A stretch of 64,000 nucleotides of DNA from NCBI RefSeq assembly GCF_008801715.1, contig NZ_VZPG01000001.1, forward strand, positions 1,364,001 to 1,428,000. The letters run 5' to 3'. The stretch comes from Pseudochrobactrum saccharolyticum (GTDB lineage: Bacteria > Pseudomonadota > Alphaproteobacteria > Rhizobiales > Rhizobiaceae). The translations under genes and the position numbers were made by a program. The notes beneath the pieces are model-generated. The model saw only the letters and a list, made by a program, of their open reading frames with translations. It was not told the origin of the DNA and did no database searches. Position 1 is the stretch's first letter. Every line of letters begins with the position of its first letter. This document shows, in pieces, positions 7,739-28,656 of this stretch.

Positions 7739-7807
7739 CTATTTGCAAAGATTAAATGCCGCTTGGGTAATAATCTTGCTGCGACACCCTGTTCCGCTTG
7801 TCATTTC

Positions 7808-7836
7808 TTGACGAAATCGCATAGCGGGTGCATATG
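7808..7836 (+). promoter_or_regulatory. Candidate sigma70-type promoter of leuC
   Basis: TTGACG (7808-7813) and CATATG (7831-7836) are 17 bases apart, lying between the rplS terminator and leuC. It is the best hexamer pair in the gap, but judged by eye only. Confidence 0.35.
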
Positions 7837-7918
7837 AACCATAATCATATCGGTTCTGTGGTCCTGTGATTGCCGGGAGGTAATGGCCGCAGAACGCTTG
7901 CAAAGGATACTAAGAGCC

Positions 7919-9328
7919 ATGAGCGCGCCGCGTACACTCTATGACAAGATCTGGGACGATCATCTGGTAGATCAGCAGGATGACGGTACCTGCCTGCTTT
8001 ATATTGATCGCCATCTTGTGCATGAAGTGACCAGCCCTCAGGCTTTTGAAGGTCTGCGTATGGCTGGCCGCAAAGTGCGCCATCCGGAACGCACCCTTGC
8101 TGTTGTTGACCATAACGTGCCGACTTCGGCAGATCGTGTGAATGGCATCAAGAATGAAGAAAGCCGTATTCAGGTTGAAGCTCTGGCCAAAAATGCGGCC
8201 GAGTTCGGCGTTGAATATTATTCCGAGCGCGATAAGCGTCAGGGTGTTGTGCATATTGTCGGTCCTGAACAGGGCTTCACCCTGCCGGGCATGACGATTG
8301 TTTGCGGCGACAGCCACACTTCTACCCACGGCGCCTTCGGTTCGCTGGCGCATGGTATCGGTACATCCGAAGTGGAGCACGTACTGGCCACCCAAACCCT
8401 GATCCAGAAAAAAGCTAAAAACATGCTGGTGCGTGTGGATGGCAAACTGGCAGCAGGTGTGACTGCGAAAGACATTACACTGGCGATCATCGGTAAAATC
8501 GGCACTGCCGGTGGTACAGGTTACGTGATTGAATATGCCGGTGATGCAATCACCTCTTTGACCATGGAAGGCCGTATGACGGTCTGTAACATGTCGATTG
8601 AAGGCGGCGCACGCGCTGGTCTGATCGCACCTGATGCGACAACTTTTGATTATATCCGTGGCAAGCCACGCGCACCTAAGGGCGAGCAGTTTGAACAGGC
8701 TCTGGCTTACTGGAAGACCCTGAGCTCCGATGAAGGCGCGCATTTCGATAAGATTGTGACTCTTGATGCCGCTGAAATCTCACCGGTTGTCACATGGGGT
8801 TCTTCGCCGGAAGACGTGGTTTTTGTGACCGATGTGGTGCCGAACCCTGATGACATTCAGGATGATACCAAGCGTTCATCGAAATGGCGTGCGCTGGAAT
8901 ATATGGATCTGAAGCCTGGCACCAAGATCACCGATATTGCGATTGATCGCGTCTTTATCGGCTCCTGCACCAATGGCCGCATTGAAGATCTGCGCGATGC
9001 TGCACGTATGGTTGAAGGTAAAAAAGTTGCCTCCACTGTCAATGCGATGATTGTTCCGGGTTCCGGTCTTGTAAAAGAGCAGGCTGAAGCTGAAGGTCTG
9101 GACAAGATTTTCATCGAAGCAGGCTTTGACTGGCGTGAGCCGGGCTGCTCGATGTGTCTGGCAATGAATGATGACCGTTTGAAGCCGGGTGAGCGTTGTG
9201 CATCGACCTCCAACCGTAACTTTGAAGGTCGTCAGGGCTTTAAAGGCCGCACGCATCTGGTGTCGCCTGCAATGGCCGCAGCCGCAGCCGTGGCGGGGCA
9301 TTTTGTTGATATCCGTGATTGGAACTAA
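7919..9328 (+). CDS. leuC: 3-isopropylmalate dehydratase large subunit
   Basis: LeuC with LeuD isomerises 2- to 3-isopropylmalate in leucine synthesis through a [4Fe-4S] cluster. The 469 residues match the family length. The cluster Cys residues lie in [13 protein letters not shown] and in [19 protein letters not shown] and [12 protein letters not shown] are substrate-side signatures. A longer frame starts at 7883, but [15 protein letters not shown] at 7919 is the normal start, with AAGGA about 12 bases upstream. leuD is not in the window. A terminator and several palindromes follow it. Confidence 0.97.
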
Positions 9329-9331
9329 ATA

Positions 9332-9466
9332 CCTGATCTAAAAGTCGCCATGCTTGGCTGCAAATGGCAATTTCTGTGCTTCCGATGCTCACGTACTTTT
9401 ATGTACGCTGCGCGTCGGTTCTTGAAATCACCATTTTCGCTTACGCCTGCCGCTTTTTGATTCAGG
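9332..9466. repeat. Long imperfect palindromic element (about 135 bp)
   Basis: The two halves fold on each other over about 65 bases each: CCTGATCTAAAAGTCGCC pairs with the far end GCCGCTTTTTGATTCAGG, ATGGCAATTTC with GAAATCACCAT, and CACGTAC with GTACG around a TTTTAT loop. It resembles the palindromic repeats of about 100 bp known from Brucella (Bru-RS type) in size and style; that identity is from memory and untested. Confidence 0.7.
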
Positions 9467-9486
9467 CATTAATTCGGCATCGTAAG

Positions 9487-9532
9487 AAAAAACCCGCTCA
9501 TTGCGTAAGATCAATGGGCGGGTTTTTCTTTT
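9487..9532 (+). terminator. Rho-independent terminator downstream of leuC
   Basis: AAAAACCCGCTCATTG and CAATGGGCGGGTTTTT pair over 16 bases (one G-U) around CGTAAGAT, then CTTTT. The palindromic element sits between it and the leuC stop, so it was inserted into the original 3' region. Confidence 0.9.
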
Positions 9533-9582
9533 CAGCTAAAGCAGCATTGATTAGGCTGGTTTTTTTTAACGAAGCAGCTACT

Positions 9583-9660
9583 CTAGTGGATTGAATTTGA
9601 CGTTTGGCTGCCGACTGAAACAAGCGCTGCTCCAAACGTCAAATTCAAAAAATCCACTAG
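9583..9660. repeat. Inverted repeat element A of a related pair
   Basis: CTAGTGGATT + GAATTTGACGTTTGG on the left matches the right arm exactly in reverse, except for a 4-base A-run bulge in the right arm. The loop is 24 bases. Element B (9676-9747) has the same plan. Confidence 0.8.
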
Positions 9661-9675
9661 TTTTATATAGTCTTT

Positions 9676-9747
9676 AGTGGTCTTTTTGATTCCGACATTT
9701 GCTCTGCACAATACCCCACGGAATGCAAATGTCGGAATCAGACCACT
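9676..9747. repeat. Inverted repeat element B of a related pair
   Basis: AGTGGTC + TGATTCCGACATTTGC on the left matches the right arm exactly in reverse, except for a 4-base T-run bulge in the left arm. The loop is 22 bases. Both A and B have TAGTGG at the start and CCACTAG at the end, and their arms align (TTGAATTTGACGTTTG against CTGATTCCGACATTTG), so they look like diverged copies. Confidence 0.8.
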
Positions 9748-9776
9748 AGTTCTTATTCGCCAAAAGGGAAGGCATC

Positions 9777-10244
9777 ATGACACAGGATCACGCTATTGAT
9801 ATTTCATTGCTTCACTTACGTGATGCCCGTGAACTTGCGCCTTTGCTGGCCGATTATGCGCAGGCGCTGAAGCGCGGTGCACCGCGCCGTCCGGATGAAT
9901 ATTATGCGGAAAAGCTGTTGCAGGATCGCAGTGCTGAATTGCTCGGTGCGCGGCTTGATGGCGTACTGGTCGGCTTTGTGATTTTCTATGATCTGCCGGA
10001 GCCGGTATCGGGCATGCGCGCAGGGCAGGTGGACCATATTTACGTCCATCACGAGCACCGCAAAAAAGGTATCGCCAAGGCTTTGATTGATGTGCTGGCT
10101 GATAAGGCCGAAGAGCGCTCATGGAGCAAGCTGGCACTCAATGCACCGCGTCAGCCGGAAGATGGCCGCAAGCTGTATGAACAGGTCGCGGCCACAGCGG
10201 ACTGGAGCAGTTTTGTGATTCGTTTTGCACCACATCTCCAGTAA
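9777..10244 (+). CDS. GNAT family N-acetyltransferase
   Basis: A 155-residue acetyltransferase of the GNAT fold. Acetyl-CoA motif A is visible as VDHIYVHHEHRKKGIAKALI (about residues 82-101, with the pyrophosphate-binding HRKKGIAKA), followed by the motif B-like NAPRQPEDGRKLYEQV. The substrate cannot be told. An AAGGGAAGG site precedes the ATG. It stands alone between palindromic repeats and its own terminator. Confidence 0.85.
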   Translation: MTQDHAIDISLLHLRDARELAPLLADYAQALKRGAPRRPDEYYAEKLLQDRSAELLGARLDGVLVGFVIFYDLPEPVSGMRAGQVDHIYVHHEHRKKGIAKALIDVLADKAEERSWSKLALNAPRQPEDGRKLYEQVAATADWSSFVIRFAPHLQ

Positions 10245-27746: not shown

Positions 27747-28628
27747 ATGAATAAGCAAGCGGATAGCCAAAGTGCTGGCTGGATCAGCGGTTTTATAGGT
27801 GTTTTAATTTTCAGCGGCTCTCTGCCTGCAACGCGTTTGGCTGTCTTGCAGATTGATCCGGTTTTTCTGACAGTGCTACGGGCGACCATTGCCGGTCTTT
27901 TGGGCGGCGCTCTGTTGCTGGCATTTCGCGAGAAATTGCCGACACCATCTGAGTTGATTTCACTCGCGCTGGTTTCAGGCGGTGTTGTGGTCGGGTTCCC
28001 GCTATTTACGGCTTTGGCCTTGCAATATGTGACCTCTGCCCATGCAATTGTCTTTATCGGTCTGCTGCCGCTCAGTACGGCAATTTTTGCGGTGTTGCGG
28101 GGAGACAGCAATCCGTCATGGCGGTTCTGGATGTTCTCGCTGGCAGGCAGTGCAGCGGTGGCATTTTTTGCTTTGGCAAAAGACCAGTCGGGCGGGGAAT
28201 TTTCGCTCTATGGTAATGTAATGATGCTGTTATCGATCATTGTCTGCGGCTATGGCTATGCGGAAGGTGCGCGGCTGTCCCGCACGATTGGCGGCTGGCA
28301 GGTGATCTGCTGGGCGCTGGTATTGGCGTTGCCGGTAATGCTGGTGTTGGCTGTCGCGTTGCGACCGGATAATTTTGCGGGTATTGAAGCGCCTGCATGG
28401 CTGGGTGTGGGATATGTATCGCTGTTCAGTATGCTGATCGGCTTTTTCTTCTGGTATCACGGGCTGGCACTTGGTGGTGCGGCAGGCGTGGGCCAGTTGC
28501 AATTATTGCAGCCGTTTTTTGGCCTCGCTCTGGCAGCCTTTGTACTGGGCGAACCGGTGAGCATAGCGATGATGGCTGTGGCATGTGTTGTGGTGATGTG
28601 TGTTGCCGGAGCTAAGCGCTATATTTGA
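27747..28628 (+). CDS. DMT superfamily (EamA) transporter
   Basis: About 293 residues with ten hydrophobic helices and two EamA halves; helix 3 region VTSAHAIVFIGLLPLSTAIFA and the second-half GVGYVSLFSMLIGFFFWYHG are typical. These carriers usually export amino acids or metabolites. The substrate is unknown; the divergent MocR regulator suggests an amino compound. Either the GTG at 27741 or the ATG at 27747 could start it; I used the ATG. The last codons and the stop lie inside a perfect 21-bp hairpin. Confidence 0.88.
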   Translation: MNKQADSQSAGWISGFIGVLIFSGSLPATRLAVLQIDPVFLTVLRATIAGLLGGALLLAFREKLPTPSELISLALVSGGVVVGFPLFTALALQYVTSAHAIVFIGLLPLSTAIFAVLRGDSNPSWRFWMFSLAGSAAVAFFALAKDQSGGEFSLYGNVMMLLSIIVCGYGYAEGARLSRTIGGWQVICWALVLALPVMLVLAVALRPDNFAGIEAPAWLGVGYVSLFSMLIGFFFWYHGLALGGAAGVGQLQLLQPFFGLALAAFVLGEPVSIAMMAVACVVVMCVAGAKRYI

Positions 28629-28656
28629 GCACTATTGCTCAAATATAGCGCTTAGC
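28611..28656. repeat. Perfect 21-bp hairpin over the DMT stop codon
   Basis: GCTAAGCGCTATATTTGAGC plus A pairs without mismatch with its inverse across a CTAT loop. The TGA at 28626-28628 is in the 5' arm. There is no clear T-run after it. It probably stabilises or ends the mRNA. Confidence 0.85.

Follow-up and report, generated by a model that had tools for sequence, protein, structure and literature searches.

In the window, the 64-kb stretch of Pseudochrobactrum saccharolyticum DNA analysed here, two palindromes lie side by side in the gap between an aconitase-family open reading frame, which we take to be leuC, and an open reading frame for a GNAT acetyltransferase. The features of this interval are listed by position, strand and description.

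7883..9328, plus strand: upstream neighbour, aconitase-family ORF (Pfam PF00330)
9488..9527, plus strand: inverted repeat resembling a terminator, with T's at its end; precedes the element and is conserved in sister species
9583..9749, minus strand: whole two-hairpin element, a probable MITE; spans 167 bp with the CTAG on either side and adds a net 163 bp to the site, family orientation on the minus strand
9583..9586, no strand: left CTAG, target-site copy (TA or full CTAG duplicated), from empty sites at two loci
9583..9660, minus strand: hairpin B, arms 9583-9607 and 9632-9660, from letter check and covariation
9661..9674, no strand: AT-rich linker, 14 bp, partly conserved across the family
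9675..9748, minus strand: hairpin A, arms 9675-9702 and 9725-9748, from letter check and covariation
9746..9749, no strand: right CTAG, target-site copy, from the empty-site comparison
9777..10244, plus strand: downstream neighbour, GNAT acetyltransferase ORF (Pfam PF00583), starting 27 bp after the element

A consensus terminator scan did not report the inverted repeat at 9488..9527 and found no terminator-like site within the element, and a promoter scan returned one weak match over hairpin B and the linker, which is no excess given a shuffle average of 0.7. Directly after leuC lies a second, commoner repeat of about 140 bp (9333-9473) with several to many matches in each of seven genus genomes at roughly 73-90% identity; the two ends appear to be inverted copies (CCTGA.C.AAAAG), with GATTC in one of them. 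In three sisters (G001, G002 and G006; loci L097, L098 and L099) the leuC-GNAT gap is filled by a different insertion-like stretch with AGAGCGTGTCGCGTTTAATCGTA, so the gap may collect mobile sequences. Elsewhere, window positions 28611-28656 contain a short-spaced perfect inverted repeat (about 21 bp) that lacks a T tail and does not start with TAGTGG.

Letter-by-letter checking resolves each palindrome into a hairpin with exact arms. In hairpin B, 9583-9590 pair with 9653-9660 and 9591-9607 with 9632-9648, giving 25 exact pairs, a 24-nt loop (9608-9631) and an AAAA bulge (9649-9652). In hairpin A, 9675-9682 pair with 9741-9748 and 9687-9702 with 9725-9740, giving 24 exact pairs, a 22-nt loop (9703-9724) and a TTTT bulge (9683-9686). 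The exact arms, single four-base homopolymer bulges and 22-24-base loops of the original prediction are all confirmed by this check; its position for the first palindrome also holds, although that palindrome begins CTAGTGG rather than TAGTGG, and its second palindrome was placed one base off at each end. Inverted repeats with exact 16-base arms and a short spacer occur at five places in the 64-kb window, two of them hairpins A and B, and nowhere in 20 mononucleotide shuffles of it. Both window occurrences of the pattern TAGTGG-N10-30-GACNTTTG fall in the hairpin pair, against an average of 0.01 in 100 dinucleotide shuffles. Folded as DNA, positions 9582-9748 (167 bases) reach -49.7 kcal/mol (z = -12.2), and the RNA fold of the element reaches -76.7 kcal/mol (z -11.1).

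The two palindromes are inverted halves of one unit, not tandem copies. Read inward from its outer end, each hairpin starts TAGTGG and contains GACRTTTG, and the consensus outer ends of A and B are identical at 23 of 30 positions, so terminal inverted repeats are present. In family order the unit runs from hairpin A (GATTCCGACATTTGC) through a linker of about 14 bp to hairpin B (GAATTTGACGTTTG), and family copies align to the window copy reversed. The initial view of two adjacent copies of one palindrome is accordingly revised, as the recurring unit is the hairpin pair in inverted double form, and is retained to the extent that one-hairpin variants occur. No ORF of at least 80 aa overlaps the element, whose 163 bp leave room for at most 54 codons.

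We searched the source genome with window positions 9560-9770 and recovered two further full-length matches, G000:C6:110771-110940 and G000:C4:142257-142417, each 79-80% identical to the query from hairpin to hairpin, linker included. They are neighboured by a zinc-type dehydrogenase gene and lgt, which are unrelated to the neighbours of the window copy. At least part of the element is present somewhere in five of seven genus genomes, and the window site is without the element in all six other genus genomes. The filled window site reads ACT-CTAG[TGG...CCA]CTAG-TTCTTATT; the sisters G004 and G005 read ACTCTGGTTCTTATT and G003 reads ACTCTGCTGTTATT. Where the window has CTAG...CTAG, G004 and G005 have CTGG, and no sister shows CTAG itself at this insertion point. 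A second locus, filled as CCCTGAT-CTAG[element]CTAG-CCATATTATGC, is empty in G006 (CCCTGATCTAGCCATATTATGC) and in G002 and G004 (GATCTAGCCATATT), and in G001 match coordinates indicate an empty site at which the query parts overlap by the same four bases; two further rows of this comparison (L314 and L315), cut at the wrong end, contain coding sequence. At the second locus the empty site thus has a single CTAG and the filled site has two, a picture in which duplication of TA and of CTAG look alike. Together, filled and empty sites indicate a net insertion of 163 bp with CTAG or its inner TA doubled. Eight of the 20 rows of a joined-flank BLAST show the window site empty, from three genomes that were fetched repeatedly; the other rows are mostly tandem-array neighbours or the same locus, with divergent rows at 69-75%. 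A third empty site, sought for one Brucella daejeonensis copy, gave no clean ortholog. In G001, a fused single hairpin joins the left arm of B to the right arm of A (L026, about 1501-1570; G001:C2:853656-853725), and its flanks match those of a full G003 element (L023), indicating an internal deletion.

Beyond the genus, 61 of 394 family genomes match the 167-bp query at E<=0.01 in a search that scored at most two candidates per genome. Deeper searches, counting pieces and scoring up to 40 candidates per genome, returned at least 112 matches in B. daejeonensis DSM 26944 (G022), at least 54 in G298, at least 31 in G193, at least 19 in G249 and at least 10 in G296. B. daejeonensis holds at least 30 full-length matches with 92-100% identity to one of its own copies (up to 98% with another copy as query), as well as at least five tandem arrays with a period of 163, in which CTAG is shared at the junction CCACTAGTGG. 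A 24-base end pattern with at most two mismatches occurs there 45 times forward and 48 times in reverse, compared to 0 and 0 for the reversed control. The same genome carries one-hairpin variants of 72-74 bp with CTAG-like flanks (C9:23-94, C34:22821-22892, C14:8260-8331 and C10:89015-89088) and outer ends of type A/A, A/B or B/B. These variants hint that lone hairpins may move or may result from rearrangement.

An end-pattern scan of genome contigs, with a pattern that also matches IS ends, returned at least 119 stretches, 80 of them with titles, and 38 of these 80 titled loci yield full elements. Hosts of full elements include Brucella, Rhizobium, Mesorhizobium, Chelatococcus, Nitrobacter, Pleomorphomonas, Sphingobium, Novosphingobium and a Hyphomonadaceae genome; Caulobacterales and Rhodospirillaceae genomes, among the matches listed, have end matches only. 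In a phylum sample, the end occurs at one mismatch in six of 398 genomes, 6/135 within the class and 0/263 outside it. Loci L001-L113 and L142-L268 yielded 127 distinct full-length copies (164-171 bp), under a demand for recognisable ends at 155-182 bp spacing that leaves out decayed and short copies; 61 remain at <88% mutual identity. Among the 95 of 127 copies with enough flank, an ORF of at least 120 aa covers more than half the length of 23, compared to 183 of 190 controls placed at a distance of 700 bp, an intergenic bias. A search of 50,697 phage records at E<=0.1 returned no match, and two of 72,556 plasmid records match the element.

The element is short, has no transposase of its own, occupies unrelated sites and combines inverted ends with target duplication, all features of MITEs, and we assign it to a MITE family across several alphaproteobacterial orders. 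The original prediction had proposed a non-autonomous mobile palindrome and looked to further copies, target-site duplication and element-free orthologous regions downstream of leuC. This proposal is well supported by two more copies in this genome and many in other alphaproteobacteria, by CTAG (or TA) doubled at two loci and by the absence of the element from the window site in six other genus genomes. The double-hairpin architecture, the copies at unrelated sites, the four bases present once in empty and twice in filled sites and the intergenic placement are observed directly, and mobility is what comparison of these sequences suggests.

Across the 61 copies, 93.5% of cells pair and 29 of 49 pairs have changed on both sides. 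Doubly changed cells number 154, compared to 46.6 in shuffles, and none of 500 shuffles is as high; sliding the partners by 1-3 columns leaves 11-18 doubly changed pairs, in a control where the structure is taken from the window copy and so favours the real pairing. These compensatory changes support the earlier claim that arm pairing is maintained. With two ill-defined pairs left out, mismatches comprise 60 G-T, 54 A-C and 65 others among 2860 cells, and the near equality of G-T and A-C indicates that neither RNA strand is favoured, in a test that mainly sees decay after insertion and with which RNA selection on source copies remains compatible. Stem differences were also counted between copies, whose pairs are not independent of one another, by degree of divergence. 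Copies less than 4% different show 121 one-sided and no two-sided stem differences; copies 4-8% different show 346 one-sided and 23 compensated differences, the latter at seven pair positions and compared to about five expected from independent changes; and copies 20-30% different show 7577 one-sided and 7199 compensated differences, with stems at 0.094 per side and unpaired columns at 0.453.

These counts bear on whether the arms stay identical through arm-to-arm copying (template switching at quasi-palindromes) with no selection on pairing, an explanation of the arms only that is compatible with a MITE. The excess of compensated differences at 4-8% fits such copying, as do B. daejeonensis one-hairpin variants with the same outer sequence at both ends (A/A at C9:23-94 and C34:22821-22892, B/B at C10:89015-89088). 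Fast copying would yield two-sided differences first, whereas stem differences between the closest copies are all one-sided, and one-sided ones still predominate at 4-8%, and we consider this explanation unlikely. Recent arm-to-arm copying, which the original prediction had allowed, is not a straightforward answer, since two-sided changes are missing from the closest copies, although a few occur in the next class. Our reading is that inserted copies decay neutrally and copies that spread have paired arms, with a possible contribution from arm-to-arm copying. A shared protein-binding site alone would not explain the pairing, because A and B differ within one copy.

We identified a candidate mobilising enzyme among 27 loci that carry an end with no partner at element distance. 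At seven of these loci (L152, L171, L187, L196, L223, L244 and L254), a CTAGTGG end in the opposite orientation lies 1047-1169 bp from the first, and the end pairs enclose a transposase frame, interrupted in some, that belongs to the IS630 family (NF033545, E 4.6e-82; DDE_3, E 3.3e-22); L152, L187 and L254 encode the same protein. Among 20 of the 27 loci tested, 14 have a transposase match and six have none. The resulting IS elements of 1.05-1.17 kb have CTAG flanks in common with the MITE, and in L152 the transposase stop codon TAG sits inside the terminal CTAG. One IS end, CTAGTGGATTGATTCCAACGTTTGGNNCCC, is identical to the consensus of either element outer end at 22-23 of 30 positions (23/30 for L152, 22/30 for L171), and the other IS end matches more weakly (16 and 20 of 30). 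The CCC that the IS carries at 28-30 recurs in 36/61 A ends and 42/61 B ends, and inner arms have CCC anywhere in 25-30 in only 1 and 0 cases; positions 25-30 lay outside the end search pattern. By this resemblance the element shares its ends with IS630-type elements, as RUP does. It is not a simple internal deletion of the IS, because both of its outer ends resemble the same IS end and no inner arm occurs in the first 60 bases of that end. On a viral contig, L261 holds a truncated hairpin A followed directly by sequence like an IS630-type IS end (7757-7882), which looks like insertion of an IS into the element; the contig stops at this point, with no transposase match.

An end-independent protein search for the IS clade, scoring up to five candidates in each genome at E<=1e-60, detects the IS transposase in 24 of 394 family genomes. 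Of 30 IS loci fetched in this way, six have CTAGTGG-like ends on both sides, seven on one side, two of them probably by chance, and 17 on neither, many of these being distant or truncated. Three of the 24 IS-bearing genomes hold the element, compared to 3.7 expected by chance, and at this threshold the partner IS is absent from the window genus (g1) and the sampled Brucella (g17) genomes, where the element is most abundant. IS630-type genes of g17 and g21, seen as weak tblastn matches (E 10), reach at most about 30% identity over 105-148 residues. Pfam DDE_3 IS630 genes of six genomes were rejected as partners, since their 23 loci, several cut by contig ends, contain no inverted CTAGTGG end pair. 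IS630-family elements insert into TA with TA duplication (PMC2170065). As judged from its ends and frame, an IS630-family transposase is the likeliest mover. The title of Tenzen and Ohtsubo 1991 reportedly points to a preference for TA in CTAG.

We compared the element to published repeat families, and none of the papers searched names it. Palindromic Brucella repeats Bru-RS1 and Bru-RS2, reportedly from Halling and Bricker 1994, and CIR repeats, reportedly from Chen and Shapiro 2003, were compared by description. The Bru-RS repeats share palindromy with the element and differ in length, at 103 and 106 bp (PMC10800456), and are reported as preferred IS711 targets (PMC2266754). By description, the 9333-9473 repeat is possibly related to Bru-RS or CIR and may be a likelier Bru-RS relative than the element. 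RUP and other IS630-type MITEs are similarly small, mainly intergenic and TA-targeted, with IS630-like ends and presumed mobilisation in trans; RUP, a pneumococcal element, is 107 bp long (PMC2229807, PMC3049150), whereas the element here measures 163 bp, consists of two inverted hairpins and a linker, occurs in several orders and has its richest hosts among genomes that lack the IS. MITEPsy1 of Pseudomonas syringae likewise inserts at CTAG or YTAA with target duplication but is 100 bp with 18-nt terminal repeats and is linked to ISPsy2 of the IS5 family (PMC3189936).

CIR is the nearest published architecture by description, being intergenic in the alphaproteobacteria Caulobacter and Brucella and combining a pair of long stem-loop arms, a linker between them, TA at the termini and a GANTC motif in one of the arms (PMC2229807). 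The element shares the two arms, the linker and the terminal TA, and similarly carries GANTC in the A left arm of 42/61 copies and in B arms of 1/61. Membership in CIR would be compatible with a MITE but seems quite unlikely to us: CIR is about 110 bp, compared to about 165 bp (164-171 bp) here, its GANTC lies at the terminal loop, compared to mid stem here with 19/61 left arms lacking it, and the consulted part of its description gives no target duplication (PMC2229807), in contrast to the empty sites and duplication seen here.

The hairpin doublet also invites comparison to single-stranded systems. REPIN/BIME elements, associated with RAYT, form inverted hairpin doublets, solo units and tandem arrays. 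A REP/REPIN-like element moved by a Y1 transposase of the IS200/IS605 or RAYT type, for which CTAG would be the tetranucleotide cleaved and not a duplicated target, would account for the inverted doublet, one-hairpin variants and arrays seen here; required hairpin recognition would fit the compensatory pairing, and insertion beside CTAG with no duplication would give the same picture. Y1_Tnp matches occur in G193 (three) and the source genome G000 (two, one of them beyond the cut-off and containing a stop codon), but none occurs in G022, G298, G249 or G296, which include the two richest genomes, in a search that was positive in 5 of 14 controls including E. coli. The hairpins of about 75 nt with 22-24-nt loops also exceed the 20-40 bp given for REPs (PMC3733652), and the element differs further in its CTAG flanks and in the existence of an IS630-family IS with similar ends, making a Y1-moved element very unlikely.

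At the Rfam gathering score, the window, L146 and L148 gave no element match and L152 gave only an ALIL pseudoknot elsewhere, and at E<=1 two sub-threshold matches appeared, one ending before the element and one over its first four bases. The suggested structured RNA family, in which hairpins kept in place by selection would act in the transcript as leader, terminator or mRNA stabiliser, has in its favour a very stable RNA fold, covariation and a position 27 bp before a start codon, but is unsupported and highly improbable given the lack of an Rfam match, the unfixed gene context, absence from orthologous sister sites, the balanced G-T and A-C mismatches, the one-armed differences of the closest copies and the lack of a terminator-like site.

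Together, these data suggest that the window element is probably a MITE copy composed of two inverted hairpins and a linker and mobilised in trans by an IS630-type transposase. The 163-bp unit with its 14-bp linker would have inserted at a CTAG-like site between leuC and the GNAT gene and duplicated TA (or CTAG). An IS630 (Tc1/mariner-like) transposase supplied in trans would bind the outer ~30 bp of both ends, cut the element out and paste it at TA within CTAG. More tentatively, copies that still fold back may be those that go on to transpose, such that pairing is kept across lineages as inserted copies decay neutrally. A stronger version, which we regard as rather unlikely, holds that mobility depends on fold-back: each end would be a hairpin that must pair, recognised or moved as a cruciform or single-stranded hairpin pair, and the MITE would outlive its IS through transposases that come and go. 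We know of no Tc1/mariner-type element with such pairing-dependent ends.

In the source genome the element sets two strong hairpins ahead of genes, and the many near-identical copies of B. daejeonensis, a genome in which no partner IS was recognised, suggest that a transposase since lost, or one that escaped recognition, was active recently. These results join an unexplained palindrome pair to a mobile family of Rhizobiales, Sphingomonadales and one Hyphomonadaceae genome, give this family a target site and a candidate transposase, and pose a testable puzzle of why DNA transposon ends keep their base pairing while their sequence changes.
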